Below, piece after piece: positions 4,877 to 18,104 of a stretch of DNA of 38,047 bases. This DNA comes from Acetatifactor sp. Its GTDB lineage: Bacteria; Bacillota; Clostridia; Lachnospirales; Lachnospiraceae. Location: NCBI GenBank assembly GCA_022511425.1, contig JAFLRO010000019.1:1-38047 (forward strand), in the 5' to 3' direction. The position numbers were made by a program, and so were the translations under genes. The notes below the pieces were generated by a model that made no database searches, was not told the DNA's origin, and was given only the letters and a program-made list of their open reading frames with translations. Each line of letters opens with the position of its first letter. Position 1 is the stretch's first letter.

Positions 4877-5461
4877 TTATGACCCGGGCTCAGCAATCCG
4901 TGACACACCCACATAAACCTCCGAAATCTCATACCAGGTAGCATAATCCGTCACGCCAGTCTGGGGCAGGTTGAAAACTCCCTGGAAGACCCGGACTGCC
5001 TCAGCTGTTCCGGGACCATAGATGCCGTCGGCGGTGACGGTGGGAATGGCTGGGAAATTTCGGGCTATACGGTTTATCTGCGTCTGGAGCTGACGCACTT
5101 TCTCGCCGGATGCACCGATATTCAGTGCATAGCCAGGATAGGAGGAGGGTACGCCGGAGATGGTGGTGGCAGTGTTGATATACATATCATTGCCATAGTA
5201 GTACCGGATGATCTCGATGGGCGAATACCCCTGATCACCCAGATACTTCGAGCCCCACTGACTTAAACCCGCGCAGGTTACTCTCTGACCGTCGCAGTAG
5301 GAAGTCAAGATGGGCTGCAATACTCCGGGTCTGGATAGGTAGTTGGCAAAGATGGTGTCCACCAGGTAATCAATGTTCTCAAAAATGTTTCTCCCATAGA
5401 TCCATTTCTGGTCGTAGGCGGTGCTGGAGGTTATAGTGAAGTCATATCCCTGGTTCCTGTA
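4877..5461 (-). pseudogene. 3' half of a SpoIID-like / peptidoglycan-binding protein, cut off by an integrated element
   Basis: From the junction codon (TAC at 5461-5459) this frame reads YRNQGYDFTITSSTAYDQKW and continues to the stop at 4877, 194 codons. It holds the end of a SpoIID-like region (AGLSQWGSKYLGDQGYSPIE) and a C-terminal peptidoglycan-binding type 1 domain (IGASGEKVRQLQTQINRI, then DGIYGPGTAEAVRVFQ). There is no start codon or ribosome site at its true beginning. The N-terminal half lies at 17301-17990 on the same strand. Joined at GGTA the two give one frame of about 423 residues. The intact protein would act at the cell or spore wall. While the element is in place this half is probably silent, although an internal start cannot be excluded. 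Confidence 0.85.
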
Positions 5462-7133
5462 CCCCGTGATGAACTTTCATTCGGGGTTGTGGTAAAAAAT
5501 CATTGAGGTTGATTTTAAAGCGTATCACAACCTTATCTTCCTTAATGTCTATTCGCTCTATCAGTCTGTTAACCAGTACTCGCTTTGTTGCCACATCTGC
5601 GTTTAAAAATACATCTTGCCATGATGGAATTTTCTGCCTGATGTCCTCCCAATCATTTATGGTTACAGATACATTGTTTAGCTCGCCTTCCTTTTGTTGA
5701 ATAACCTTTAATTGCCTTTCAGCCTGTTCTTTCTGTTTGTTTATAAGAGAAATCAAATACTCCTCTGACATCAGATAATTGCCTGTCATAGCATCTGGAA
5801 TATGGTCCTCCAAAACATCAATCTTTTTTTGTATATCATCAAGGACTTTTTTCTCTTTTTTCAGTTCGTTTTCCCTTTGCCTGCGCGTTGCGTTTTGGTT
5901 TTTGGTTATTTCCTCAAAAACATTTTCATTTTCCTGCAATATTTCAACATAAGTTGCAAGCGCCTTGAAAATAATAGTCTCTATTTTGTCGGCTCTAAAC
6001 TGCTTTGTCTTCGCATGAGGAATGCCCTGCCATGCATCTTGGCATTTGTAAATGGGAGTTTTACTGGCCCGCTTTTCGCCTGTACCTTTAATTGTCCAGT
6101 AATTATATTTACTGCCATTCACCAGTTTACAACCACAATATCCACAATGGATAACATCTACCAGAGGCAGCATGCCATCATTTCTCTTAATAACATTCAC
6201 ATCTTTATGCTCCAATTTCTTAATATATTTATCTCCTCGCATTTTTCGTCTCTCCTGTGTTCTATCCCATGTTGCACCGTCAATAATCATAATGTTTTCG
6301 TTGGGTTCAAAGGACCTAATCCAGTCTTCACTGTCCAGTCTGTGATATTGGCCGTTGATACGCTCCCTGCGTTTATAAGCCGTATGACCTGCATAAATGG
6401 GATTGGTCAATATGCTTGTTATGGTTCCGCTTTTCCATGCATCGTTGGGAGCTAGGTTTTTGTATCTATCATCCTCATTTAACAGCTTTGCAATTTTAGC
6501 AGAGCCATATTCTTTGTTTAAAGAAAGCTGATAGATATACTTCACAACTTCGGCTTTTTCGGGAATGACTACTAAATTATGTAATGCTCGTCCATGCTTA
6601 CTGAGTTCTCCCGAAAGCACTAACTCATAGCCATAAGGTGCCTTCCCTCCCATAAATTTCCCCTGCTGTACCAGCTTTTGGGCTGTGTCTTTTACCCTCA
6701 TTCCGGTGTCGGAACTGCTTTTTTGTGCATTCCCATATCGGAGAGCTAATATCATTTGCCCCATAATATCATCATTTTCTGGAGAAATACAGCCGTCTTT
6801 AACGGTGTATATGTCAACTCCATAACTTTTTAGCGACATTACATAAGCGCCTATTTCCCACATCAGACGCCCAACTCTATCATCTTTATAAGTAACTAAA
6901 ATGTCGTATTCCTTGTTCCTTGCGTCCTGTAGAGCCTCTTGCAATATATCCCTGTTAGCTACAGAGTTTTTATATCCGCTATTGCTTCCCTCAAAATATT
7001 CTTTTTCGTCTAGTTTCCAATCAACCTGTCTTTCAACGTATTCCTTTACTATTTGTCGCTGTACGGATAAATCTCCATCAGCCTCAAGCTGTTGATTGGA
7101 ACTCACTCTTAATAACATTCGTACTCTTTTCAT
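5442..7133 (-). CDS. Large serine recombinase (integrase/excisionase of the element)
   Basis: This 563-residue protein should integrate and excise the element through a covalent phosphoserine intermediate. The N-terminal resolvase domain has MLLRVSSNQQ (R9, S11 as nucleophile) and the arginine motif TYKDDRVGRL. The recombinase domain follows (GKAPYGYEL near residue 162, ILTNPIYAGH near 239), then a zinc ribbon starting HCGYCGC near 330, a coiled coil of roughly 410-480, and a C-terminal strand region (LVNRLIERIDI). All parts are present, so it looks active. ATG 7133 is preceded by AAAGGAGGCGG. The last residues GVQEPGI and the stop at 5442-5444 are read from host DNA beyond the att core. In a circular form the tail would differ. 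It follows the 77-residue gene at 7184 and shares its regulated promoter. Confidence 0.93.
   Translation of the reverse strand: MKRVRMLLRVSSNQQLEADGDLSVQRQIVKEYVERQVDWKLDEKEYFEGSNSGYKNSVANRDILQEALQDARNKEYDILVTYKDDRVGRLMWEIGAYVMSLKSYGVDIYTVKDGCISPENDDIMGQMILALRYGNAQKSSSDTGMRVKDTAQKLVQQGKFMGGKAPYGYELVLSGELSKHGRALHNLVVIPEKAEVVKYIYQLSLNKEYGSAKIAKLLNEDDRYKNLAPNDAWKSGTITSILTNPIYAGHTAYKRRERINGQYHRLDSEDWIRSFEPNENIMIIDGATWDRTQERRKMRGDKYIKKLEHKDVNVIKRNDGMLPLVDVIHCGYCGCKLVNGSKYNYWTIKGTGEKRASKTPIYKCQDAWQGIPHAKTKQFRADKIETIIFKALATYVEILQENENVFEEITKNQNATRRQRENELKKEKKVLDDIQKKIDVLEDHIPDAMTGNYLMSEEYLISLINKQKEQAERQLKVIQQKEGELNNVSVTINDWEDIRQKIPSWQDVFLNADVATKRVLVNRLIERIDIKEDKVVIRFKINLNDFLPQPRMKVHHGVQEPGI
5460..5463. 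other. Left attachment junction core (TACC / GGTA)
   Basis: These four bases are common to both element ends. To the left the sequence continues the host reading frame. To the right it is the 3' end of the recombinase gene. The true exchanged dinucleotide within it cannot be fixed from one strain. Confidence 0.75.
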
Positions 7134-7183
7134 ATCTGTCCGCCTCCTTTCAATGGCAGCAGGGGAAATAACCCCTGCTTGTG

Positions 7184-7417
7184 CTATGAGATTTTATGTA
7201 CGCGTTCCTGTAAGGCGTTGACGAGTATAGACTTAACTTCCTGTTTAATCAATTCCTCATCATCTGCTTTTTCAGGAAACTCGAAAATAACTCTCATTTC
7301 CTTTTGTTTCATCTCAAACTGTTTGTAGGTTGTATCTGTCAAGGTTTGCTCCTTAGCAACATCATTTAATAAAATGTTATTAGGAGAAAGCCTGTCATAT
7401 TCGATAATACTACCCAT
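7184..7417 (-). CDS. Small protein co-transcribed with the serine recombinase, function unknown
   Basis: This protein of 77 residues starts MGSIIEYDRLSPNNILLNDV. The ribosome site GAAAGGAG (7433-7426) is best placed for ATG 7417. ATG 7423 and TTG 7426 in the same frame are too close to it. The middle (MKQKEMRVIFEFPEKADDEE) suggests a strand followed by a charged helix. I do not recognise a family. It is the first gene of the recombinase transcript, 50 bp upstream of it, so an accessory role such as a directionality factor is possible but unproven. Confidence 0.7.
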   Translation of the reverse strand: MGSIIEYDRLSPNNILLNDVAKEQTLTDTTYKQFEMKQKEMRVIFEFPEKADDEELIKQEVKSILVNALQERVHKIS

Positions 7418-7469
7418 GGACATCAACTCCTTTCTTTGATTTTCTCTACCTCCTTACAAATAAGTTTCA

Positions 7470-7484
7470 ACCACTTTTTGTGGT
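7470..7484. promoter_or_regulatory. Operator copy 1 (ACCAC-T5-GTGGT palindrome)
   Basis: A perfect 5-5-5 palindrome lies between the minus-strand -10 box and the small gene at 7417. The same motif recurs at 7521 and 8652, each time touching a -35 box, so it is probably the site of one element-encoded regulator. Confidence 0.6.
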
Positions 7485-7492
7485 ATGTTTAT

Positions 7493-7521
7493 ATGCTAAC
7501 ATATAAAAATGGATATGTCAA
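7493..7521 (-). promoter_or_regulatory. Promoter of the small gene and serine recombinase
   Basis: On the minus strand TTGACA (7521-7516) and TAGCAT (7498-7493) are 17 bp apart. The -35 touches operator copy 2, and operator copy 1 lies downstream of the -10. Confidence 0.6.
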
Positions 7522-7535
7522 CCACTTTTTGTGAG
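7521..7535. promoter_or_regulatory. Operator copy 2 between divergent -35 boxes
   Basis: ACCACTTTTTGTGAG is the palindrome of copy 1 with a degenerate right arm. It sits exactly between the minus-strand TTGACA and the plus-strand TTGACT, so one bound protein could block both promoters. Confidence 0.6.
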
Positions 7536-7564
7536 TTGACTTGAGAGGGTTAGTGTTGTACAAT
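7536..7564 (+). promoter_or_regulatory. Promoter of the degenerate serine-recombinase homologue
   Basis: TTGACT (7536-7541), a 17-bp spacer and TACAAT (7559-7564) form a good sigma-A promoter. It is divergent from the recombinase promoter and shares operator copy 2. Confidence 0.7.
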
Positions 7565-7596
7565 ATAGGTAGATTATGAAGGAAAGGAGCCTCAAT

Positions 7597-8625
7597 ATGG
7601 AAATAAATAAACAGCATATATATGGATATGCAAGCATTCGAACAGGTCATACAAAGGAAGACCTTGTTACAAGTTTACAAAAGAGAAAAATATATAATCA
7701 ATTTGAAAACTTAATGTTTGCTGTTCCTAAAAATGATGAAGTAGAGCAGGATAGTAATTTTATTGAAAACAATATGATATTTAAAGAAGATGATACTATA
7801 CAGATTGATGTGATGACAAGTGCCAGAAAGGGTATGTATTATAAACTGGATTGCATTATTGAACAGGCAAAAAGAGAATCAAAGAAACCATTTAACACTA
7901 TTATTGTAATAACTTCTTTGAATGCGTTTGGAAATTGTGAGAACATAAAAAGATACTATAAGATTTTTCGTAAAGAAAAGATAGGAATTCTTTATCCTGA
8001 TTACACAAGAGAAAGTGACTTATCTGAATATAGTACCTGTGATTTCGGTTTTAAGCCGCGTTCACAATCAGAATATGACAGAGCATTTGACTTGGTCGAA
8101 AGATTAGTAGATGGAGATATTAAAGATAATAGGGGTCGAATCAGTGATGGATATAGTATAGCATTTAGAACAGCTTTTTGGCTTTATGAACTTTTCAAAG
8201 TTCCAGAAAAGGTTGCAGTTGCTATGTCAGGATATAGCAAGAATGGTTTTCATATGAAAGCTGATAGTTATGAGCAGACAGCCAATTATAAAAAAGAATT
8301 GGAAACCTTTGAAAAGAATTTTGAGATATCAAAGCTTATAAAGAGAAACAGACCTGTGCCAGAAAGTTTTGATAAGCTTATGCATTGGTATGAAAAGAAA
8401 AGGAATTTAGAACTAGCGTGTATACATTGTAAGGTACCCATGATTTTCCCGGTGGACTATAAACGATTGATATTAAAAAATGAGGGGGGAAAGAAAGAAC
8501 TTGCACGTTGCCTTAAATTATACGATGAAGATTTAATCAATAGATTTGAAGAGTGGGTAAAGGAAGGAAACAAACCAACGGAATTTTATCTCTATTGTAG
8601 TATGGAGCAGTATTTATCGAGTTAA
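7597..8625 (+). CDS. Catalytically degenerate serine-recombinase-like protein
   Basis: The 342-residue protein starts at ATG 7597, placed by AAAGGAG at 7583-7589. An earlier ATG at 7576 has no site. Residues 8-16 read IYGYASIRT where resolvases have YGYARVST, so the nucleophilic serine is Arg15 and the conserved arginine is Ser13. Further on, IIVITSLNAFGN stands where active enzymes have a strand and LDRLGR, so the Asp and both catalytic arginines are gone. The order of strand, motif, helix and second strand (EKIGILYPD) still suggests the resolvase fold. The C-terminal half (from about residue 150) is helical and basic with no family I recognise. The loss of every catalytic residue with an intact frame suggests a DNA-binding or inhibitory role rather than decay. 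Divergence from the active recombinase, with a shared operator, fits a regulator. The fold assignment is inference from short motifs. Confidence 0.7.
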   Translation: MEINKQHIYGYASIRTGHTKEDLVTSLQKRKIYNQFENLMFAVPKNDEVEQDSNFIENNMIFKEDDTIQIDVMTSARKGMYYKLDCIIEQAKRESKKPFNTIIVITSLNAFGNCENIKRYYKIFRKEKIGILYPDYTRESDLSEYSTCDFGFKPRSQSEYDRAFDLVERLVDGDIKDNRGRISDGYSIAFRTAFWLYELFKVPEKVAVAMSGYSKNGFHMKADSYEQTANYKKELETFEKNFEISKLIKRNRPVPESFDKLMHWYEKKRNLELACIHCKVPMIFPVDYKRLILKNEGGKKELARCLKLYDEDLINRFEEWVKEGNKPTEFYLYCSMEQYLSS

Positions 8626-8651
8626 TAAAATTTTTATAGGGGCAATGGAAT

Positions 8652-8666
8652 ACCACAAAAAGTGGT
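8652..8666. promoter_or_regulatory. Operator copy 3 (perfect ACCAC-A5-GTGGT)
   Basis: This perfect palindrome has a last base that is the first base of the TTGACA -35 box of the next promoter. A half-site-like AAAAGTGGTTT follows at 8748. Confidence 0.65.
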
Positions 8667-8694
8667 TGACAAAACAAATATATAGTAGTAATAT
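8666..8694 (+). promoter_or_regulatory. Promoter of the 99-residue protein gene
   Basis: TTGACA (8666-8671), 17 bp and TAATAT (8689-8694). The leader to ATG 8818 is about 115 nt and contains a CTCTCTA/TAGAGAG pair (8704-8710 and 8735-8741). Confidence 0.7.
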
Positions 8695-8817
8695 GAATGT
8701 ATCCTCTCTAGAAGGGGATATATTTTTCACAATATAGAGAGCTTATTAAAAGTGGTTTGCTGTTGTGATGAATATAGTAACTGAAATATAACAAATTAAC
8801 GAAAGGAGTGGATTTTT

Positions 8818-9117
8818 ATGAAAAAGATAATTAATGGTAAAAAATATGACACGGAAACAGCAACTTTGATAGGGGAATACTGGAATGGATATGGAGATTT
8901 TTACTGTGTTTTAGAAAAACTTTATCGTAAAAAGACAGGAGAGTATTTCTTATATGCTGAAGGAGGAGCGCTTACGGAGTATGCAGAACATTATGATAAC
9001 GGTCAGTCAGATGCATCACATATTTTTCCCTATACAGAGAAAGAGGCGAAAAACTGGGCCATGAAAAAAATTAGTGTCGATGAATTTGAATCTTTATTCG
9101 GAGAAGTGGAAGAATAA
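8818..9117 (+). CDS. Small conserved mobile-element protein, function unknown
   Basis: The 99-residue soluble protein starts MKKIINGKKYDTETATLIGE at a well-placed GAAAGGAG site. It contains a repeated-strand pattern of the type LYRKKTGEYFLYAEGGALTE, then an acidic C-terminal helix (SVDEFESLFGEVEE). I have the impression of a small protein common on Clostridia integrative elements, but I know no function. It has its own operator-controlled promoter and its own terminator-like hairpin, so it forms a single-gene unit under the same control as the recombinase. Confidence 0.8.
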   Translation: MKKIINGKKYDTETATLIGEYWNGYGDFYCVLEKLYRKKTGEYFLYAEGGALTEYAEHYDNGQSDASHIFPYTEKEAKNWAMKKISVDEFESLFGEVEE

Positions 9118-9125
9118 GCTAAACG

Positions 9126-9171
9126 GGTTAGTAATGCGTGACATACATATTGTCACGTGTTACTAACCTTT
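9126..9171 (+). terminator. Terminator-like hairpin after the 99-residue protein gene
   Basis: GTTAGTAATGCGTGACA (9127-9143) pairs at 15 of 17 positions with the segment at 9151-9167 around a 7-nt loop, followed by CTTTATG. The T-run is short, so termination may be partial. Confidence 0.55.
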
Positions 9172-9301
9172 ATGTAACGCATGTGTTTGTAATGTAATTG
9201 TAATGTAGTGATATGTTTTGAAGTTGATATGAGATGGTTTGTTTTGGAATAAACTGATTTATTATAAAAACTTAATACAAGCATAGAAAGGAGTTGGTTA
9301 T

Positions 9302-9964
9302 ATGCCAAATGAAACAATAATCAAAAGAACTGATATAAACAATTCAATTTTTAAAGAATTAAAAGAAAAATGGCCACCAGTGGCAGCAGATAACGGAGTA
9401 GCGTATAAACAGAAATTGGAGTACCTAACTTTTGAAACTGATTTTATTGAAGACCCGTTGCTACAGATATTAATTAGTAAACATGGATTGGGAGTGATTT
9501 CCGTCATCTTCTATATGCGGACCGAGATGTGCAAGAATGGTTGGAAGGTTAGGCTGGATGGCTTATATTACGATTCATTGGTTGCCAAATGCAGTTTTGT
9601 ATGCAGGTTGGATGAGCAATGTACAACGGACATATTACAGGCATTGATTGATAATAGATGTATGTTTGTAGTTCAGGACACAGAGGTGGAGGAAGGCGAA
9701 TGGCTGACATGTACGCAACAAGTATATAATTATGAGATGGCATGTCAAAAGCGATTTGAGAACAGGAAAAGGCAGAAAAAACACAGGGCTAAGTCAGGGT
9801 CTCAGAGTAATCAGGCAATATCGGCGGGAAAAGAATGTGATGACCCATTTGGCATAAGCTCGGAGCAGGAAAAAGTGAAAAATTATCCTTTCAGTTCAAA
9901 TGTAGGATTTCAAGAAATTGATGACGACCCATTTGGAATATGGAAAAATACGCCAATGGAATAG
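9302..9964 (+). CDS. DUF4373 (Lin1244/Lin1753-like) domain protein, likely replication or DNA-associated
   Basis: The 220-residue protein starts at ATG 9302 behind AAAGGAG. Residues ~39-75 (LEYLTFETDFIEDPLLQILI, then SKHGLGVISVIFYMRTEM) have the D-x-ED/KHG pattern of the DUF4373 N-terminal domain, seen in phage and mobile-element replication proteins next to DnaD-like parts. The middle is followed by a basic stretch (KRFENRKRQKKHRAKSG). The tail is polar and carries DDPFGI twice (near residues 180 and 209), which looks like a short linear interaction motif. There is no ATPase or helicase motif. Its position in the middle of the element would fit an initiator or helper role. The family call is moderate. 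Confidence 0.65.
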   Translation: MPNETIIKRTDINNSIFKELKEKWPPVAADNGVAYKQKLEYLTFETDFIEDPLLQILISKHGLGVISVIFYMRTEMCKNGWKVRLDGLYYDSLVAKCSFVCRLDEQCTTDILQALIDNRCMFVVQDTEVEEGEWLTCTQQVYNYEMACQKRFENRKRQKKHRAKSGSQSNQAISAGKECDDPFGISSEQEKVKNYPFSSNVGFQEIDDDPFGIWKNTPME

Positions 9965-10021
9965 CCAAATAATAACGCTGTAAACCAATAAGTATTTGAA
10001 ATAGACAATATTTATTCTGAG

Positions 10022-10086
10022 AGCGAGGTTAGATGAATGTTGAGTGCATCGAAGATAAGCACGAAAAACATTCATCTAACCTCGCT
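10022..10086. repeat. Perfect 20-bp inverted repeat with 25-nt loop
   Basis: The arm at 10022-10041 (AGCGAGGTTAGATGAATGTT) is exactly complementary to 10067-10086, and GTGC/GCAC inside the loop can extend it. No T-run follows. A stem this long in the non-coding centre of an element is typical of a replication or transfer origin, or an RNA structure. The role is unknown. Confidence 0.8.
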
Positions 10087-10161
10087 TAATTGTATTTGAA
10101 AGAACGGTTGTCGGCTAAATTTCCTCAAAATGTAATAATATCTCTGGAATATTCCATTTTT

Positions 10162-10189
10162 TTGATTTCAAGAAATACTTTGATACAAT
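10162..10189 (+). promoter_or_regulatory. Probable promoter of the tyrosine recombinase operon
   Basis: TTGATT (10162-10167), 16 bp and TACAAT (10184-10189). The next gene starts about 390 bp downstream, so an unusually long leader would result. Confidence 0.45.
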
Positions 10190-10518
10190 ATATATAGAAA
10201 GTGTTTATTTTAAGTATTGAGTATCTAAGTGTTATAGCTTTTTGGAACAGCAGAGAATTTATCAGGTTTCTGTATTATTTCACAAAAGGCAATCCTTTTA
10301 GGAAAAGAGAGAGAAAAATCTCGTAACCCTAATAACGCGGCTATCCTGATAGAAGGGGAGCTGCTTTACATATAATAAGTCCAGTACCGAAGCTGGCAAT
10401 TATCGTGCGGAAATGGATACAGGTCATTCTGCATTATTCCTAAATCCTGTACTATTAGATTTTATCAATCTGATAGTGAGATATTTCCCAAAATTAAAAT
10501 TTGAAGAACGTGTATGTT

Positions 10519-10545
10519 CAAAGCCAGGCGGCTGCCTGACCTTTG
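10519..10545 (+). promoter_or_regulatory. Leader hairpin before the tyrosine recombinase
   Basis: CAAAG-CC-AGGC-GGCT-GCCT-GAC-CTTTG folds into a nested stem ending 33 bp before ATG 10579. No T-run follows it, so translational rather than transcriptional control is the more likely effect, if there is any. Confidence 0.35.
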
Positions 10546-10578
10546 GTTTCTGTACACATTTTCATGAGAGGACGGCAT

Positions 10579-11511
10579 ATGAGCAAAAAAAGTGTCTTTA
10601 AGCATCAGTATAAAGCTGCCTTGCAAAACCAGGTGCGTTTTGGACAATCTAAGCATAAAGACAAGATAGAAGCAAAAGAAAAATGTCGCAGGGAAAATAA
10701 ACCTTATGAAGCACCCAAAGGAATCTATTCCACGAGGACGCTGAACAATTATGACAGCGTGTGTGAGCAGTTCACATCCTGGGTTTTGGAAAACCATAGA
10801 CATGAAGTGAAAAGCTATGCTGATTGTCAAAAATTTGCCGCCGATTGGCTCAAAGCGAAAGAAGAAAAGGGGCTGTCGGCTTGGAGTCTTCATTTATACG
10901 GAGCCGCCTTGGCAGCTTCTTTTGGGGGAATCAGTAAGAATGACTTAGGTTATACTTTCCCTGCCAGAGAGCGCAAAAACATTATCAGAAACAGAAATGA
11001 TAACCTGACAGGGGAATACGCTACCAAAAGACAGCGTGATGCTTACATTATGTTGAAAGCGACTGGTTGCCGCAGGGCAGAATCGTTGCGGTTAAGAAAA
11101 GAAGACTTTAGAGAGCAGCTTGGCAAAGACAATAATCCGACGGGTCTGCTGGAAGTTTTTAAGCGCGGCAAAGGCGGGGTTGAGCGGTGGTGCTTGGTCA
11201 ATCCTCTTTACACAGATTTTGTGAGAGATTTTCTGGCTAAAGTCAAAACCTATAGCCATGCAGGCGAAGAAAGATTGTTTGAAAAGAATGATGTCCCCAA
11301 AGGGGGCATCCATTCGGCAAGGGCTGTCTATGCCTGCGACTTGTATCATTATTATGAAGAGCATGGCTATGCGTCCGGAAAGATATACCACTGCCGAAAG
11401 GAGCTTTACGGAGCGACATATGACAAAGGTATCCTGAAGGAAGTCAGCTATAATCTTCAACATGCAAGAAACAGCATTGTCATCAATTATCTATGGTTGA
11501 TGCGTGAATAA
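10579..11511 (+). CDS. Tyrosine recombinase / phage-integrase family protein
   Basis: From ATG 10579 (GAGAGG six bases upstream) the protein has 310 residues. The N-terminal ~130 residues are a basic SAM-like core-binding region. The catalytic domain shows R165 in ATGCRRAESLRL, a lysine/glycine turn (FKRGKGG, 195-200), H245-x-x-R248 in HSARAVY, H295 in LQHARNS and Y304 nine residues later, the normal H-to-Y spacing. All catalytic residues are present, so it should be able to cut DNA. It lacks the usual arm-binding head. It is a second recombinase in an element whose ends fit the serine enzyme, so it may resolve dimers, act on another site, or belong to an older element. The next three genes follow closely and look like its operon. 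Confidence 0.75.
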   Translation: MSKKSVFKHQYKAALQNQVRFGQSKHKDKIEAKEKCRRENKPYEAPKGIYSTRTLNNYDSVCEQFTSWVLENHRHEVKSYADCQKFAADWLKAKEEKGLSAWSLHLYGAALAASFGGISKNDLGYTFPARERKNIIRNRNDNLTGEYATKRQRDAYIMLKATGCRRAESLRLRKEDFREQLGKDNNPTGLLEVFKRGKGGVERWCLVNPLYTDFVRDFLAKVKTYSHAGEERLFEKNDVPKGGIHSARAVYACDLYHYYEEHGYASGKIYHCRKELYGATYDKGILKEVSYNLQHARNSIVINYLWLMRE

Positions 11512-11556
11512 AATTATCCATAGGCAGAGCTATGGAAGAAAGGAGACAAGATAGAA

Positions 11557-11925
11557 ATGGAATATTTTGACAGGAAAGAACTCAGGGTTCTTTATGTCGC
11601 GTCACAGTGCATATTTTATTTATTGACATTCAAGGTCGAGAAATATGAGAAGCTGATATTAGAAAGTCCCAAATATGAAATCAAGGAAGATGTTCTAAAT
11701 GACATCTACAAAACTCTTTTGGAAAAGAATGATGATTATTACAAGCTCATTTCATATTTTGAAGATGAGATAGGCACGGCGCAAGACGATTTAATCTTTG
11801 GCATTTTCAGCATTTCTCAGCTGACCAGAGCGCAGTTTGCATCCAATATTTTGATAGAGATTGAACTCTTGGATGGACCTATGACAAGTACGAAGATTCA
11901 TTCAAATATGCCTGAAGATTTCTAA
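11557..11925 (+). CDS. Hypothetical helical protein of the tyrosine recombinase operon
   Basis: The 122-residue protein starts at ATG 11557 behind GAAAGGAGA. It is mostly helical and acidic with one moderately hydrophobic stretch (VLYVASQCIFYLLTF, residues 11-25), and ends MPEDF. No motif is recognised. It lies 45 bp after the recombinase and 27 bp before the DUF5688 gene, so it is probably translated from the same message. Confidence 0.7.
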   Translation: MEYFDRKELRVLYVASQCIFYLLTFKVEKYEKLILESPKYEIKEDVLNDIYKTLLEKNDDYYKLISYFEDEIGTAQDDLIFGIFSISQLTRAQFASNILIEIELLDGPMTSTKIHSNMPEDF

Positions 11926-11952
11926 AAAAACGAAGGAAGAGAGGAAGAGAAA

Positions 11953-12840
11953 ATGATGACAAAAAACTTAATAATGGGAGTGATTAAAGAGTCACTTGAA
12001 AAAAGACTTGGAGATGGATACGTTTTAACGCTGAAGCCGGTGCTAAAGAACAATGGCACTATTTTCACGGGCCTTTCCATCCAGAGAAAGGGGGAGTCGC
12101 TGGCTCCGGTCATATATTTGGAACAGTTTGCAGATGATTACATTCACGGAGAACCACTGGAACAGATTGTTGAAATGATACTACATATCTATGAAAAACA
12201 GAGAGCCGACGAATTTGACGTTTCAGATGTCGGCACGTTTGACAAGATAAAGAATAAAATCGTCTATCAGCTCATCAATACAGCTCAAAATGAAGTGCTT
12301 CTGCGCGATATTCCCAGCGTTCCGTTTCTTGATTTATCCATTGTTTTCAGAGTATTGATTGATTCTCAATATACACAAGAAACAGCGTCTTTTCTAGTTC
12401 ATAATTTGCACCTTGAAGCATGGGGAGTGTCTTCAGATGAAGTGTGGGAGGCAGCGCAGGAGAATACGCCGGAGCTGCTGCCGGCGAACATAAGTCCTTT
12501 GGACAATGTGATTCGTGCGCTTCAGCCTGGTTTGTTGGAAGACAGTGAATGCTGTTCCAACAAAATCTATGTGCTGTCCAATGTTAAATGTCAGCTTGGG
12601 AGTTGTTGTATCCTGTACCCACAGATTATGTCAGATTTCGCAGACAGTGTAGGAAGCTTTTATATTCTGCCATCTTCCACACATGAGGTGCTCCTGCTTC
12701 CAGAAGGAGATGGGCTGGATGTAGAGTTCTTGAGAGGAATGGTACATGATGTCAATAGGAAAGAGGTGCCTGAACAGGATATTTTGTCTGACAATGTTTA
12801 TTTCTTTTCAAAGGACACTAAACAGATGAAACAGTTATAG
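11953..12840 (+). CDS. DUF5688 family protein
   Basis: This 295-residue protein starts at ATG 11953 after GAGGAAGAG. It matches the general features of DUF5688, a family frequent on Lachnospiraceae mobile elements: an N-terminal region with VIYLEQFADDYIHGEPLEQI, a central NKIVYQLINTAQNEVLLRDI, a DLSIVFRVLI segment, and a C-terminal half resembling a degenerate peptidase-like fold (SSTHEVLLLPEGDG). No catalytic motif can be seen. The function is unknown. It is followed 11 bp later by the J-domain gene. The family name is from memory of these motifs and not from a search. Confidence 0.7.
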   Translation: MMTKNLIMGVIKESLEKRLGDGYVLTLKPVLKNNGTIFTGLSIQRKGESLAPVIYLEQFADDYIHGEPLEQIVEMILHIYEKQRADEFDVSDVGTFDKIKNKIVYQLINTAQNEVLLRDIPSVPFLDLSIVFRVLIDSQYTQETASFLVHNLHLEAWGVSSDEVWEAAQENTPELLPANISPLDNVIRALQPGLLEDSECCSNKIYVLSNVKCQLGSCCILYPQIMSDFADSVGSFYILPSSTHEVLLLPEGDGLDVEFLRGMVHDVNRKEVPEQDILSDNVYFFSKDTKQMKQL

Positions 12841-12851
12841 AGGTATGACCT

Positions 12852-13331
12852 ATGAAATGGTTTTCTAATATCCAGACAATTGATGAGTTGAGAAATCAAT
12901 ATAAGAAACTCCTAATCAAGTATCATCCAGACAATAATCCTGACACGGATACAACAGCTGTTATGCAGGAAATCAATTCTGAATATGATTCATTTCTCAA
13001 ACAGTTCACAGCAAATCAGACATCTTCCAGAAAATGTGATTATTCCACGGAGACAGAGCTAAAAAGGGTCCTTAACGAAGTCATCAAAATGAAAGCAGAT
13101 ATTGAGGTTGAACTTGTCGGCTTTTGGATATGGATAAGCGGTGACACCTATCCTGTTAAGCATAAGCTGAAAGAACTGAATTTTAAATGGGCCTCAAAAA
13201 AGAAGATGTGGTATTGGGGTGTTTCTGAACACAGATGTACCATTCCTATGGAGATGTCCTCTATCCGTGAAAAATATGGCTCTATCCTCTTTAAGACAAG
13301 GCAAGAGGTAGACGCGATTGACGCACGGTAA
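12852..13331 (+). CDS. J-domain (DnaJ-like) protein of the element
   Basis: The 159-residue protein starts at ATG 12852. Residues 8-50 form a J-domain (IDELRNQYKKLLIKYHPDNN), with the essential HPD at 25-27. J-domains stimulate the ATPase of an Hsp70. The C-terminal part contains a conserved-looking WIWISGDTYPVKHKLKELNF, then KWASKKKMWYWG, which resembles a DNA- or nucleotide-associated domain often found on its own in mobile-element proteins. It is the last gene of the operon before the terminator at 13432. It could recruit host DnaK to an element-encoded replication or recombination complex. That role is inference. Confidence 0.75.
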   Translation: MKWFSNIQTIDELRNQYKKLLIKYHPDNNPDTDTTAVMQEINSEYDSFLKQFTANQTSSRKCDYSTETELKRVLNEVIKMKADIEVELVGFWIWISGDTYPVKHKLKELNFKWASKKKMWYWGVSEHRCTIPMEMSSIREKYGSILFKTRQEVDAIDAR

Positions 13332-13431
13332 CTTCACAACTGAATATAGGAATCATTGACAACTTTTAATGCGAAGGAGATTCTGACTATGATTGAACCA
13401 TTTTAAATTGTTTCCAATTTGGAGAAATTCA

Positions 13432-13467
13432 AAAAGACAGGTGATGAAACCTGTCTTTCTTTTATTT
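13432..13467 (+). terminator. Intrinsic terminator of the tyrosine recombinase operon
   Basis: AAGACAGG (13434-13441) pairs with CCTGTCTT (13450-13457), followed by TCTTTTATTT. A five-codon ORF (MIEPF, 13389-13406) with a good ribosome site lies just before it and may be a gene remnant. Confidence 0.8.
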
Positions 13468-13519
13468 CAAACTTTTGCCGGGAGATACCCTGACATATTA
13501 ACTTAATGTTGGCTGTTTA

Positions 13520-13537
13520 GGGTGGCAGGTGCCACCC
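13520..13537. repeat. 18-bp near-perfect palindrome
   Basis: GGGTGGCA and TGCCACCC are separated by GG only. It lies between the terminator of the plus-strand operon and the 3' end of the minus-strand repressor gene. It is G/C-rich in an AT-rich setting. It may be a terminator stem for the minus strand or a protein site. The role is unknown. Confidence 0.5.
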
Positions 13538-13584
13538 ACTATATATATTATAGAGCCCAAATTTTATAAATCAAATTTTGCCAG

Positions 13585-13791
13585 CTATTGTTCATTCTTA
13601 ATATACACAACAATGTCTTCAACTCTGCAGTCCAGAATTTGGCATAAACGTTCCACTGTCTCCAATGTGACATTTCTATCATGCTTTAATTTATCAATCA
13701 TACTGCGCGAAATATTGTATTTTGTTATAAGCATATATATAGACACTTTTCGCGATTTCATTGTTGCCCATAACGGCTCAAAAGACATCAT
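13585..13791 (-). CDS. XRE-family (Cro/CI) transcriptional repressor
   Basis: This 68-residue protein is a single helix-turn-helix domain: YMLITKYNISRSMIDKLKHD (residues 19-38) followed by NVTLETVERLCQILDCRVED (40-59), the normal XRE spacing, and a short tail. It starts at ATG 13791 behind AAGGAGGAG. It is divergent from the gene at 13978, and the 186-bp gap between them holds repeated ATTGTC/GACAAT half-sites, so it most likely represses itself and its neighbour. Element-borne regulators of this kind usually set the balance between quiet carriage and mobility. Confidence 0.85.
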   Translation of the reverse strand: MMSFEPLWATMKSRKVSIYMLITKYNISRSMIDKLKHDRNVTLETVERLCQILDCRVEDIVVYIKNEQ

Positions 13792-13817
13792 AGGATACTC
13801 CTCCTTCCGTTTATTAT

Positions 13818-13909
13818 ATTGTCATTATCAAGAGAATAAAATTCTCTCGTTCAAGAGATTGTCTCATTGGGGAGATTGTCACTATATAGACAATATTTTT
13901 CTTGACAAT
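13818..13909. promoter_or_regulatory. Operator array between the XRE gene and the 13978 gene
   Basis: ATTGTC occurs at 13818, 13858 and 13875, and its complement GACAAT at 13889 and 13904. The pair 13875-13894 forms a perfect 6-8-6 palindrome. A separate perfect 7-3-7 palindrome (AGAGAAT-AAA-ATTCTCT) lies at 13831-13847. A minus-strand TATAAT overlaps the first half-site (13818-13813). A plus-strand TTGACA (13903-13908) with CACAAT 17 bp further on overlaps the last one. Confidence 0.6.
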
Positions 13910-13977
13910 AAAATGAATACATTGCACAATATTTATAGAATACCTTTATGTGAACCCTGCGAAGGAGAGATTAGATT

Positions 13978-14658
13978 ATGGTAAAACGTTATGAGCCGAG
14001 TAAAGACGAAAGAGAAATAATCGAAGTTCTTAGAAAAGAAATTGGCAAATGCGCCAAGAAGAGCTTTAGGGTAAAATCCCCAAAAGTTATCTTCGATTAC
14101 GAGAATGGAGAAGAGTACGAAAGAGCGAGAACAAACCTTTCATTAAGGGTAAAAATAATAGATGAAGGTGATAAAGGCAAGGAACGTACAAATATTTACG
14201 CTTGGCTGATTAATAATCATCTTCACAACCTTACTATTGGACAATATGCGGCAACCAGCTATTGCTATTTTACTTATGAAAAACTACAGCAAATGGCAAG
14301 AAAGACACCTATTAAACAAGGTAGATGGGTTAAGGTAAAACAGAACCATGAGAAACCCGAACAAAACAAGTCGGTTATAAAACAGGCTCAGAAGACTATG
14401 AAGGTTGCTAAACCTGAACCAGAGAGAAGGAAGACGGATTACGAGGAATATTTGGAAGAACAGGAAGCAAGAAACAGGGAATTTGAAGAATCCCTAAGAC
14501 ATTCTTACTCTGGACCCTACAGAAATACTGCAAATACATCTGATTCATCATATGATGATTATGACGATTATGATGATTATTTGGAGAGAGTTGCTTATTG
14601 CAGACAGTTCGAGTATGACTTCGGAACTAAGAGTACGGTTGTAAGCGACCAATTTTGA
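13978..14658 (+). CDS. Unknown charged protein with acidic repeat
   Basis: The 226-residue protein starts at ATG 13978 behind GAAGGAGA. Residues 1-100 are a mixed fold with basic and acidic residues (VKRYEPSKDEREIIEVLRKE). The centre is basic (KVKQNHEKPEQNKSVIKQAQ). The C-terminal part is acidic with the low-complexity run YDDYDDYDDY near residue 197. There is no membrane segment and no recognised domain. It is divergent from and presumably controlled by the XRE repressor, and is the first gene of the right arm of the element. Confidence 0.75.
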   Translation: MVKRYEPSKDEREIIEVLRKEIGKCAKKSFRVKSPKVIFDYENGEEYERARTNLSLRVKIIDEGDKGKERTNIYAWLINNHLHNLTIGQYAATSYCYFTYEKLQQMARKTPIKQGRWVKVKQNHEKPEQNKSVIKQAQKTMKVAKPEPERRKTDYEEYLEEQEARNREFEESLRHSYSGPYRNTANTSDSSYDDYDDYDDYLERVAYCRQFEYDFGTKSTVVSDQF

Positions 14659-14722
14659 TATATGCTTCTGTTAGTAAAGCTTACGGGAGTATGAAGAAGT
14701 ACGTTGGAAGGGAGGTGTTTTT

Positions 14723-15457
14723 ATGAAGAGAAGAAGTAGTGCAATCGCTGTTGCTCTAATGGTCTTTGCCCTTTCTTTAGCTGGATGTGGTCACGCTATA
14801 TCTGTTGAAAGTACATATACAGCACAAGACAGCGAAATAGAATGGGAGTATGCTGAAAATGAATCGGTTACAACAGACAATGTGGGGACTGCTTTGAATC
14901 AAGAAAATGAAGATACTGGGGAAACAGAGTCAATCGACATTCCTGAAATCGTTGATGGTGCTGATGATGAAAAGGTAGAGGAAACGGATGCCGGTTTGCC
15001 CGTTTTCACTGACTCACCAGCAGAGGACGTAATTACGCCTACACCTGAACAATCCCCTCAGTCTGAGGATTCCTTGTCTGAGACTACCAGCGACTTATGC
15101 GTTGGTGACGCGAAGATTATCTTTGATGAAGTCAACCGCGTTCGCGAAGAGGCTGGTCTTAACGCTCTTGAATGGAGCGATGAACTGGCTGCTGCCGCTT
15201 CAATCCGTGCCGAGGAGATTATTTCGGTTATGGACCATACCAGACCTGATGGGTCAAGCTGGTACACCGTTTCATCCTTGGCATCCGCTGAAAATATCAT
15301 CCGTGGTCCCCATACGGATGGATATGAAATGATGGAGAAGTGGATGGATTCGGAAGGGCACAGGAATAATATTCTAAAGCCCGATTTAAGTATTATTGGC
15401 GTTGCTACTTTATCTACTGACAAGGGTGATACTGGTGTGCAACTATTCGGATATTGA
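14723..15457 (+). CDS. CAP-domain (SCP/PR-1-like) lipoprotein
   Basis: The 244-residue precursor starts at ATG 14723 behind GGGAGGTG. A signal sequence with lipobox LAGC (Cys22) predicts a lipid-anchored protein on the outer face of the membrane. Residues ~25-125 are a Thr/Glu-rich acidic linker. The CAP domain fills the C-terminal ~120 residues: IFDEVNRVREEAGLNALEWS, then HTRPDGSSWYTV, AENI, MDSEGHRNNIL and IIGVATL, ending VQLFGY. The conserved CAP His/Glu residues are present. Bacterial CAP proteins occur on cell and spore surfaces, but activities are mostly unknown. It is cargo of the element, with two further lipoprotein genes behind it. Confidence 0.9.
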   Translation: MKRRSSAIAVALMVFALSLAGCGHAISVESTYTAQDSEIEWEYAENESVTTDNVGTALNQENEDTGETESIDIPEIVDGADDEKVEETDAGLPVFTDSPAEDVITPTPEQSPQSEDSLSETTSDLCVGDAKIIFDEVNRVREEAGLNALEWSDELAAAASIRAEEIISVMDHTRPDGSSWYTVSSLASAENIIRGPHTDGYEMMEKWMDSEGHRNNILKPDLSIIGVATLSTDKGDTGVQLFGY

Positions 15458-15536
15458 GGTGTATTCATTTGGTAATGAGTCAGGCAAAATATATGCTTAA
15501 CTTCCATTGATTAAAGCAAAAAGGAGAGAAAGATTT

Positions 15537-16283
15537 ATGAAAAAGAAAGTGCTAATGATGCTATGTGTTACTATCATGTGTGTGGGATTGGTGGCCTGTG
15601 GGGGCGAAGATGCTAAACCTACAACAAATTCTAACAGTGCAAGTCCTGCGGTAAGTGAATCAACAACGGCTCCCACGGTGACTCCAACCGTTGAACCAGA
15701 GCAAACACCAGTCGCTGAGGATACTTCGGAAAGTGAAGAATTTGAGGATGTAATTGGGGATTATGACTTTGACATTGTCAACATCACAATTGATGACATG
15801 GTTCCTGCTGAATTTGGAGTTGACCTTCCAATCAATAACTCATCAAGCGATTTGACATGGGGCGACATTGGACTGGACGGACTCACCATCTTGTTCCCCA
15901 GAGCTATGTATTGGACTCTTCAGGGGCCTGATATGTCTGGCGTAGTTTATACAATCGCTAACAACGATGACAGAAGTGTTGAGTTCAAGATTAACTTCCG
16001 TGTTCTCGAAGGAGTCGCAAAGGCTGATGGTAAAACTGAGGTCTACGATTACGGTCGTTACATTGTTGGCGTGAGAAACAATGACCCTCGCGCTGGTAAA
16101 GAAGGGGAGAACCTTAAAAGTGCTGGTTATACCATAACAATTTCCGATACGGAAACCAACACTTATGCACAAATTACTATTGGCGCAGGAATGAATACTG
16201 ATAACGGCGAAGAAGTAATCACTGCTTATAGAGAAGCCTTTCTCTCCGACATTCTTGCTCAGGTTGAGGCAATGGCACAATAA
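15537..16283 (+). CDS. Lipoprotein of unknown function
   Basis: The start is ATG 15537 (AAGGAGAG upstream), giving 248 residues. The frame is open further upstream but without a ribosome site. The signal peptide ends in LVAC with Cys21 for lipidation. A Pro/Thr/Glu linker (residues 25-75) leads to a C-terminal beta-rich domain of about 165 residues (from FDIVNITIDDMVPAEFGVDL to the end). No family is recognised. It sits between the CAP lipoprotein and the broken lipoprotein and has the same architecture of signal, linker and single domain, so the three seem to be one surface-protein cassette. Confidence 0.85.
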   Translation: MKKKVLMMLCVTIMCVGLVACGGEDAKPTTNSNSASPAVSESTTAPTVTPTVEPEQTPVAEDTSESEEFEDVIGDYDFDIVNITIDDMVPAEFGVDLPINNSSSDLTWGDIGLDGLTILFPRAMYWTLQGPDMSGVVYTIANNDDRSVEFKINFRVLEGVAKADGKTEVYDYGRYIVGVRNNDPRAGKEGENLKSAGYTITISDTETNTYAQITIGAGMNTDNGEEVITAYREAFLSDILAQVEAMAQ

Positions 16284-16308
16284 AAGGGTTACAAAGGAGT
16301 ATGAGCTT

Positions 16309-17082
16309 ATGAAAAGAAAAGTAGCACTAATCTTATGTACAATTATGTGTACAGTATTAACGGCTTGTGGGGAAGAAAAAGCGTCAGATTCTGATTCTAT
16401 GACAGGAAATGCAATGGTACAGGAATCTGATAGTGGAAGTGATGTCAAGACAGATAATACTTCTGACTTTGCAGATAATGCTACTTTGAATGAAGAGGTT
16501 GCAACAGAGCCAGCCGAAGAAGCGGAAGAAGTTGTGGAGCAGGAAGCACCATAATTTGAGGTAACAGAAAAGTGTGAAAAGCAGTTTTCCGCATTTATAG
16601 CTGCCTGTAAAATTGGACATTACGATGAAAAACTGGGGAATATAACAGATGATGATTACCTGTTCCTGATTGGTGATTATATTTACTATGTTACAAACGA
16701 TTGGATGGAAACGCCGGATGCTGCAGACCTGCCTTTTGATTGGTACAATGGAAATATCACACCGGAAGAAGTCAGAATGTTTGTAAAAGCTGTTTTTGGC
16801 GCGGATATGTCAGAAGATTACTCCTTTACTATAGAAAGGGAATGGGGGTCTCTGTCTGTGACGAATGGAGTGCTGGAAAACAGCTTTGACGGTCAGACGA
16901 TTCAGGTAGTTGGCGGTGCAACTTATTTTGATGACACAGTTGAGACAGAAGGGGATGAAGCGATTGTTGGAGTGTTATATACCACCTATGACCCGGAGCA
17001 GGAAGAACATAGTGTTGTGATTACCTGTGTGCCATCAGGAAACCTTGATATTTTCGGTGGCCTGCAAATAAAAAGTTTTTGA
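16309..17082 (+). pseudogene. Lipoprotein gene interrupted by an in-frame TAA
   Basis: ATG 16309 (ACAAAGGAG upstream) begins a lipoprotein with lipobox LTAC (Cys20) and an acidic linker, but TAA at 16552-16554 ends it after 81 codons. The same frame continues open for 176 codons (FEVTEKCEKQFSAFIAACKI and onward) to the stop at 17080-17082. The joined product would be about 257 residues, the size of the two lipoproteins upstream. The C-terminal domain contains TPEEVRMFVKAVFGADMSED and ends LDIFGGLQIKSF. One C-to-T change (CAA to TAA) would explain it. The later ATG 16705 lacks a clear ribosome site, so the C-terminal half is probably not made alone. A sequencing error or suppression are other explanations. 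Confidence 0.75.
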
Positions 17083-17093
17083 CATTCCTAGTG

Positions 17094-17118
17094 CAGGGAG
17101 CAGAATATCTGCTCCCTG
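17094..17118 (+). terminator. Hairpin after the lipoprotein genes
   Basis: CAGGGAGCAG (17094-17103) and CTGCTCCCTG (17109-17118) form a perfect 10-bp stem with loop AATAT, placed just after the last stop codon. No T-run follows, so it may act weakly or mainly protect the RNA end. Confidence 0.55.
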
Positions 17119-17150
17119 AAAAGCTGTACTGTGCTATTATAATGTTTCTT

Positions 17151-17201
17151 TAAAACAAAGTTGGACATTTAGGAACTGACTTTGTTTTAGAGCTTGTCCA
17201 A
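17151..17201. repeat. Two interleaved inverted repeats near the right end of the element
   Basis: TAAAACAAAGT (17151-17161) pairs with ACTTTGTTTTA (17179-17189), and TTGGACA (17161-17167) pairs with TGTCCAA (17195-17201). The two pairings cannot form one simple hairpin. They lie about 100 bp inside the right junction, where accessory sites for recombination or an RNA switch could be. Confidence 0.5.
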
Positions 17202-17300
17202 ATTATCGGTATTCGATTTCATAGGAATTTTTGCTTGTAATCTTTATTACCAATTCATTGATAATCAAACATCTAAAACCATGAATGACTGTTGATTCCC

Positions 17301-17990
17301 CTACCATTCAGTGAATACACGATTTAATGTAAAAGACATAATCGCCAAGACATTTGCATAAATGGTAGCCTCAGGCCAGGTGGCATAGATTTCACAGGAA
17401 GCCACATTCTTGATGTAATCCCGGTACTTCACCCAGTAGTTGGTAGCGGTGGAATCGTTGGGAGCGCCGTCGTGGACGATGATATATTCAGGAATCACCA
17501 CACGACTGAGGACAATTTCGCCTGTCTCGGCAATTGGCTTGATTTCATCCTCGGGAATTTTGGGCGGGTAATCTCCAAACAGTGTGTGATCAGGAATGAT
17601 CACATCTCGCTCGGGCTGCTCACCGCCCACCGTGGGATTCATTCTGACCGGTTGAAGGGAAAGCTCGCCTGCCAGGACTTCGGAGCCGGACACCAGCACT
17701 GGATCATAACCTTCCGCAGTCACCTCGATATTAAACTCTGAGTAGGGCTGTTCCAGATTTTCAGGCTCCAGAGAGAGCTCCACGGGCGGCGCAGGCAGTT
17801 CTACTGTTGGCGTCTGGCCGGAGCTGTCTGTGGTGAGCTCCATCAGGGGGGAATCAGGATCGCCGGTGTAGGAGATGGTGACAGTGGCGTTCACTACGGG
17901 GATCAGTTCCACGGACGACACCACATTGATCTTAATGGAACCGCTGGAGGAGTTGGTCCCTTGGGCAGCCACCAGTTGGGGATTTGGCAT
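17301..17990 (-). pseudogene. 5' half of the SpoIID-like / peptidoglycan-binding protein
   Basis: The gene starts at ATG 17990 (GAGAGGT upstream, in-frame TGA just before) and runs for 229 codons to Trp229. The stop TAG is then created by the element's first base. Residues ~17-125 form a carboxypeptidase-regulatory-like beta domain (GSIKINVVSSVELIPVVNAT). From about 175 a SpoIID-like region begins (YIKNVASCEIYATWPEATIY, then ANVLAIMSFTLNRVFTEW), and the element cuts inside it. SpoIID proteins are sporulation peptidoglycan enzymes. There is no signal peptide. A mother-cell-type promoter can be proposed upstream. The 3' half is at 4877-5461. Confidence 0.85.
17302..17305. other. Right attachment junction core (TACC / GGTA)
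   Basis: This is the counterpart of 5460-5463. To the right the sequence is the host gene (TGG codon for Trp229). To the left it is element DNA. Joined element ends (circular form) would read ATTCCCC-TACC-CCGTGATGAAC, in which the flanks are imperfect inverted repeats (GTTnATnnC), the usual look of a serine-recombinase attP. Confidence 0.75.
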
Positions 17991-18078
17991 AAATACCTCT
18001 CAATCTGCCGCCGGCAGGCGGCCATACCCGATACAGGGGAAATTTCCGTCCACAACCGCACCGGGTTTAGTTATAGTC

Positions 18079-18104
18079 AATATATGCAGTGGGCAGAATA
18101 AGGT
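18079..18104 (-). promoter_or_regulatory. Possible sigma-K-like (mother-cell) promoter of the split gene
   Basis: On the minus strand AC (18104-18103), a 16-bp spacer and CATATATT (18086-18079) approach the sigma-K pattern AC-16-CATAnnnTA, about 90 bp before ATG 17990. Short patterns like this arise by chance. The sporulation-type product is the only other support. Confidence 0.3.

Follow-up and report, generated by a model that had tools for sequence, protein, structure and literature searches.

The interrupted sporulation genes known from the literature are sigK, spsM, gerE, spoVFB and yabG (PMC10747680 among the sources). The skin element in sigK of C. difficile encodes a large serine recombinase, CD1231, driven by sigma-A, with timing set through a directionality factor, CD1234, under sigma-E/SpoIIID (PMC5025042). 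In B. subtilis, the mobile, phage-borne SPbeta lies in spsM, a spore gene that is rebuilt in sporulation (PMC4191935). The non-phage element gin, of 28.6 kb and with three serine recombinases, is excised during sporulation from the mother-cell gene gerE of Bacillus cereus ATCC10987 (PMC5595907), and vfbin in spoVFB and yin in yabG are prophage-like insertions in sporulation genes of Bacillus weihenstephanensis and one C. botulinum strain (PMC10747680). Here we analysed a 38,047-nt contig of an Acetatifactor sp. (JAFLRO010000019.1, assembly GCA_022511425.1; the window), in which an element with its own large serine recombinase splits a gene identified by homology as sleC, coding for a cortex-lytic enzyme of spore germination. 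It is likely, with a probability of roughly 0.78 as judged from the sequences, that this is a mobile, phage-related element excised from sleC in the sporulating mother cell, in the manner of skin or of SPbeta in spsM.

Like skin, it encodes a large serine recombinase behind a vegetative-looking promoter and occupies a mother-cell gene, which its excision would restore precisely. The targets differ, sigK in one case and in the other sleC, which is itself a sigma-K regulon member in C. difficile (PMC3789822). Skin also differs in that the recombinase family described here is, at the loci examined, tied to sleC over many genera, and that no sigma-E-driven directionality factor was identified in our elements. 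The likeness to SPbeta extends to phages, since integrases of the same family occur in large viral contigs (L193 and L194); the window element is distinct in its size of 11.8 kb, in the lack of phage structural genes among its scanned open reading frames (ORFs), and in its target. Compared with gin, it has one serine recombinase and a conserved small ORF. The XisF/fdxN elements of heterocyst-forming cyanobacteria, where DNA is removed in a terminal cell and one gene can hold several elements, belong to another organism and another development; the window recombinase matched the NCBIfam XisF model weakly (72 bits, far below the cut-off of 375). New here, also in comparison with vfbin and yin, are a germination gene hit repeatedly within one bacterial family, at three sites and in some genomes cut into three pieces, and a phage-linked, mobile recombinase family tied to that gene. 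Among the full-text literature matches listed, which mostly do not cover subscription journals, nothing on a split sleC or cotJC was found.

The interrupted gene and its element

The features that define the insertion were as follows.

18078–18104, minus strand: sigma-K/E-like sleC promoter, AC-N16-CATATATTG, 96 nt before the ATG; its last base departs from CATANNNTA
17304–17990, minus strand: sleC 5′ half, codons 1–229, ATG at 17990; a TAG at 17303–17301 lies just inside the element
17302–17305, minus strand: attL core GGTA, read from the sequence
17283–17286, minus strand: attP right-arm motif ATTC, 15 nt from the core TA
7184–7426, minus strand: small ORF of 80 aa, directly upstream of the recombinase gene and co-directional with it
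5442–7133, minus strand: predicted large serine recombinase of 563 aa, with its final codons in sleC DNA past the attR core
5479–5482, minus strand: attP left-arm motif GAAT, 17 nt from the core TA
5460–5463, minus strand: attR core GGTA, read from the sequence
4877–5461, minus strand: sleC 3′ half, from Y230 to the stop at 4877, beginning (Y)RNQGYDF...

On the minus strand, the 5′ half was open from the ATG at 17990 to ...FTLNRVFTEW, and the first listed in-frame start of the 3′ half was a GTG at 5362, 33 codons inside. Joined at GGTA, the two same-strand halves gave a single open frame of 1272 nt and 423 aa, exactly as the initial annotation had read them, and the computed join restored the conserved W-Y-R-N junction. 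The stretch removed was 11,842 bp, with a GC content of 38.4% compared with 52.8% for the joined gene. As in skin-like elements, a sporulation gene is interrupted, recombination between short shared cores would restore its frame exactly, and a site-specific recombinase of the element's own lies next to its end. This structure (the site, the halves, the recombinase and the in-frame join) is secure.

The same annotation had described a SpoIID-like region and a peptidoglycan-binding domain. The latter was recovered as a C-terminal PG_binding_1 domain (E 1.8e-13), but SpoIID scored 17.7 bits, below the Pfam cut-off of 23, and residues 15–420 of the joined protein matched PDB 9h68, “Spore cortex-lytic enzyme pre-pro-form”, at E 7.9e-133. 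The SpoIID-like label was therefore dropped, SleC being the better name. SleC is the major cortex-lytic enzyme of C. difficile and essential for its germination (PMC3789822).

The recombinase claimed for an element of ~11.84 kb was confirmed by two domains above the cut-off, PF00239 Resolvase (1.9e-16) and PF07508 Recombinase (6.7e-16), with a zinc ribbon below it. The product of 7133–5442, by these matches a large serine recombinase, also matched the integrase family phrog_95 (2.9e-73), and its best relative among named phages and plasmids had only about 25% identity. Excision would trim it by 5 C-terminal residues and add a 32-residue tail from the other element end (563 to 590 aa). By tblastn the small ORF was matched at E ≤0.006 in 17 of the 23 other elements compared, and below 1e-3 in 15, with no acceptable Pfam match and no PHROG family; by analogy, it is a candidate recombination directionality factor.

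Split sleC genes and selection on their halves

sleC was clearly present in 102 of 150 genomes drawn from the family (Lachnospiraceae), three weak matches (G002, G072 and G089; E >1e-4) being excluded. Both sleC and spoIVA were found in 100 genomes, neither in 46, sleC only in two and spoIVA only in two; by this co-occurrence sleC is carried by spore formers. A comparison with relatives holding an uninterrupted, colinear homologue had been proposed, and such homologues exist: the closest was in G022, of the same genus (82%), and dozens more were found in the family. YabG (PF05582), a possible SleC-processing partner, was found in none of 15 genomes, the intact-sleC G022 among them, and hence was uninformative.

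The gene was split in 14 of the 102 carriers, all of which have spoIVA: five at the site seen in the window (site A) and nine at another (site B). Site A lies between codons 229 and 230, with the core G-TA. Both halves were present in G000, G104 and G032, while in G042 and G143 a 3′ half and a recombinase were found but no 5′ half. The core shared at other listed site-A junctions was GTA, or TA alone in L071. Site B lies near residue 293, with the core GGNTGACC; in eight of the nine genomes (not in G132) a recombinase of another family was found, either beside sleC or within the interval, and the pieces were on the same strand at 5/5 and then 4/4 further loci. G051, ambiguous at a contig end, was not counted as split, and G074, G076, G098, G130 and G066 were judged by coordinates to be contig breaks, G074 and G076 also reading through site A.

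A profile from four site-A recombinases identified 41 named loci in a GTDB-based collection, two of them (L095 and L109) being the records of G032 and G143. A sleC piece was present at 40 of the 41, abutting the recombinase in 37, and the exception was a 23% match. In an overlapping sample of 397 family genomes, the 12 strong recombinase matches all lay beside a sleC piece (at L072, of a SleC paralogue), and six weak ones did not. Both pieces were on one strand at all 24 site-A loci that held both, as is required for excision. The recombinase was at the 3′ half or, convergently, at the 5′ half (10/40). Serine integrases with a palindromic central dinucleotide can act in either orientation, and a recombinase at either end fits the palindromic central TA. 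At L111, two site-A recombinases (40% and 70% identical to that of the window) were present in one interrupted sleC, a stacked or tandem insertion. At L072 (G315), the SleC paralogue (pieces 33% and 52% identical) was split at the corresponding place, with a different core; its recombinase was 36% identical and had an in-frame TGA.

Three pieces of sleC were found in five genomes. Four of these combined site A with a break at site B or a few codons from it, and the fifth combined site A with a third position, near residue 305. In G401 all the pieces shared a contig and a strand, the second and third being 61.5 kb apart; the remaining four genomes had their third piece on a different contig. 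sleC has at least three such sites, and the split in the window is not a one-off, belonging to a mobile family at one of them.

No stop or frameshift was found in 31 5′ and 40 3′ pieces (site A only, matches >45% identity, including one duplicate, L068 having the L092 sequence), and partial pieces ended at contig ends or at a second split. The ratio of nonsynonymous to synonymous substitution (dN/dS) was 0.027 for the 5′ half in L097/L105 and 0.035 for the 3′ half in L098/L099, with 0.16 and 0.14 for the recombinases of the same pairs. Each pair shares its split, and only in these two was dS informative for both genes and similar in magnitude between sleC and the recombinase, the other pairs being near-identical or saturated. 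In 37 split genomes, the first in-frame start of the 3′ half lay at a median of 33 codons inside, and a Shine-Dalgarno start within the first 120 codons was found in only two. Those first 33 codons were 75% identical on average between genomes (76% and 69% further on), and Y230 and R231 were kept in all 37. Since the 3′ half has no usable start yet is conserved from the junction, it makes sense only when translation crosses into it from the 5′ half. Split sleC genes therefore appear to be still used by their hosts.

Mobility, attachment sites and other target genes

On a SleC tree of 121 rows (70 intact), the site-A-only splits needed 24 changes, at least 12 of them forced by starred branches, and the site-B-only splits nine, at least seven forced. 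L095 and L109 were omitted from the tree and the piece counts, and G143, G042 and G319 from the tree, for which only 70 intact rows were entered. Origin of the site-A splits from one ancient inherited event was rejected because of the 24 changes and of near-identical elements in distant hosts. At L080 and L081, the recombinases were 100% identical and 4.3 kb of DNA was 97% identical, while the sleC 5′ halves were 65% identical, indicating that the elements move between species. At the DNA level, no blastn match to the window element was found among L080–L119 and L191–L194.

In 16 of 24 elements, including that of the window, the joined ends rebuild an attP, reading GAAT-N17-TA-N15-ATTC; a scan of both strands of the linear elements (313,386 nt) met this pattern only two times. 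Relatives of the recombinase were found at 44 viral-contig loci, four of them at 63–74% identity. Two of the four had a sleC piece, and none was present within the 5-kb flanks in L193 and L194. In L194 (IMG/VR, a 146-kb contig), a contiguous attP architecture lay behind the recombinase, and dUTPase, tail and cell-wall-binding genes were present; in L193 (IMG/VR, 68 kb), with NrdD and an appendage-like gene, the pattern had TA on the other strand and was less certain. Large phages thus seem to carry integrases of the site-A family. NrdD-, dUTPase- or radical-SAM-type genes accompanied the integrase in these contigs. Scans of the viral contigs with circle patterns returned L194 again, plus L279, which had no recombinase or sleC match and was taken as chance.

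The site-B recombinase family had matches in 50 of 394 family genomes (E ≤1e-90). Thirty loci of this type were fetched: 16 had a sleC piece by tblastn, L238 (G016) was also a known split, and among the remaining 13, seven adjoined a truncated cotJC (L248, L250, L252, L257, L260, L261 and L262) and one an M23 peptidase piece. cotJC, coding for a manganese catalase of the spore coat, was broken in two in seven genomes (G271, G014, G276, G309, G017, G105 and G169), two of which also had an intact copy. In G271 the pieces were on one contig and the same strand, 35.7 kb apart. At L249, the M23 peptidase gene, its identity confirmed, was apparently broken at GTPII, with a site-B-type recombinase in between.

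Some elements and site-B intervals hold chromosomal-type genes, among them CheC/CheD, an iron alcohol dehydrogenase, a family-3 glycosidase and a serine dehydratase. Frequent loss of such intervals would be too costly for growing cells, a point in favour of their removal in a terminal cell. On a wider reading, about as likely as not, spore formers of the family carry out programmed DNA elimination in the mother cell: separate recombinases would assemble sleC from two or three pieces at each sporulation, the intervals removed would reach 61 kb and take in chromosomal genes, cotJC and an M23 peptidase gene would be treated in the same way, and germination would be gated by rearrangement.

Proposed excision in the mother cell and its alternatives

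In the proposed mechanism, the element integrated through its own large serine recombinase at a fixed site (codons 229/230) in sleC, a gene that is not needed in vegetative growth. During sporulation, the recombinase and a directionality factor, perhaps the small ORF product, would recombine attL with attR in the mother cell; the element would be dropped as a circle and sleC restored, to be transcribed from a sigma-K-type promoter, while the spore chromosome would retain the element. Three parts of this are inferences: that the element leaves, that it does so only in the mother cell, and that a directionality factor takes part; the developmental excision is a strong one. The initial annotation had suggested a developmental switch acting on a new kind of target gene, and this is the best-supported reading, given a germination gene that is mother-cell-expressed in C. 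difficile, the intact site-A halves, the selection on the informative pairs, a 3′ half that cannot be translated alone and the precise join.

The sigma-K-like motif AC-N15-18-CATANNNT was found in 59 of 109 regions upstream of sleC, compared with 6.5 in shuffles (maximum 13), and sigma-G-like and TATAAT motifs showed no clear excess in the same regions. By this motif and by homology, the target gene is predicted to be expressed in the mother cell. TATAAT preceded the recombinase operon in 15 of 43 cases (9.7 in shuffles). Strict sigma-E/K motifs over whole elements numbered 58, against 41–48 in five shuffles, and in L081 a full sigma-K-like match lay 24 nt before a possible small-ORF start. 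No mother-cell promoter was recognised as a general feature of the recombinase operon or small ORF, the motifs showing no excess before either.

Whether gut commensals can colonise a new host is decided by germination, and if sleC is rebuilt by excision each time a mother cell forms, many gut bacteria would depend on a mobile element to germinate. Annotation may then have labelled such strains sleC-defective. The system would be a spore-former parallel to heterocyst DNA elimination, would explain why mobile elements settle in mother-cell genes, for which the spore germ line never pays, and would provide sequence-defined recombinase/attachment-site pairs for several target sites.

Several observations weigh against excision in the mother cell. 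The splits are scattered over the sleC tree and element transfer has been recent; some insertions may not have had time to decay visibly. In a starred clade of nine sleC rows, all split at A, recombinases were down to 62% identical where sleC was 92% identical; a single shared insertion is not assured, and repeated insertion is possible because the recombinases differ. Before the recombinase operon, CATANANT was found in 11 of 43 cases against 8.4 in shuffles, giving no sigma-E/K excess, nor was there an excess before the small ORF (12 of 41 elements having no small ORF by regular expression), and in the window the operon looks vegetative and repressed. The window genome carries a SleC paralogue of 44% identity (C130), and the rejoined attB was absent from its own assembly, a draft of 198 contigs, with up to three mismatches allowed. 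No excised circle of a small element was found among the viral contigs for the patterns tried. The site-B recombinase frame of G047 (L048, 2058–2915, minus strand) has 285 aa and is truncated, possibly broken, with both sleC pieces present, and in G309 the 3′ piece of the split cotJC is short and decayed-looking, an intact copy lying elsewhere in the genome.

In an unlikely alternative, an ordinary mobile element uses sleC as its attachment site and inactivates it, excises only for transfer, and leaves a host without SleC that does not germinate or relies on a paralogue. The interspecies transfer at L080/L081, the scattered distribution, the lack of a mother-cell promoter on the recombinase operon and the paralogue would all fit. 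Against it, 71/71 site-A pieces were free of stops and frameshifts with dN/dS of about 0.03 in the two informative pairs, the nine-row clade is split throughout, five genomes keep three pieces, a second recombinase family targets sleC and other sporulation genes, and the paralogue occurs beside intact sleC too, in a genome of the same genus.

Stochastic excision in growing cells, an excised minority making germination-competent spores (bet-hedging or phase variation), is less probable still. A vegetative-looking operon promoter in the window, the palindromic core TA and elements in both orientations agree with it, but the chromosomal-type genes (CheC/CheD, iron alcohol dehydrogenase, serine dehydratase) would vanish from growing lineages, and spores formed after excision in growing cells should no longer contain the element. 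That the halves are made as separate polypeptides which assemble, making excision unnecessary, is very improbable: the stop right after the junction would permit a 229-aa fragment, but 35/37 3′ halves have no Shine-Dalgarno start in their first 120 codons, and the 33 post-junction codons are as conserved as described, with Y230 and R231 invariant. An assembly chimera, conceivable for so fragmented a draft, is the least probable, the same arrangement occurring in dozens of assemblies, including scaffolds of G104 (C1, 3.8 Mb) and L087 (3.2 Mb).

The remaining features of the element in the window were as follows.

7467–7533, minus strand: two copies of CACAAAAAGTGGTTGA (identical 16-mers) flanking a TTGACA box, before the small ORF/recombinase operon
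7576–17082, both strands: cargo, with a 349-aa ORF, an Xer-like ORF, DUF5688, a DnaJ-like protein, a CAP-domain protein and lipoprotein-like ORFs
13585–13791, minus strand: HTH_26 regulator, within the cargo

The box and its flanking repeats probably represent a vegetative promoter with operators for the small ORF/recombinase operon, and the CACAAAAAGTGGTTGA copies are perhaps operators for the HTH_26 regulator. No phage structural genes were found among 10 window ORFs searched against PHROGs, nor in one Pfam and one NCBIfam scan of part of the element's ORFs. The 349-aa ORF was common to the elements of the window and L111 (65%). A run of lipoprotein-like and CAP-domain genes lay at the attL end (14723–17082), and the CAP protein matched a PHROG labelled as a sporulation protein.

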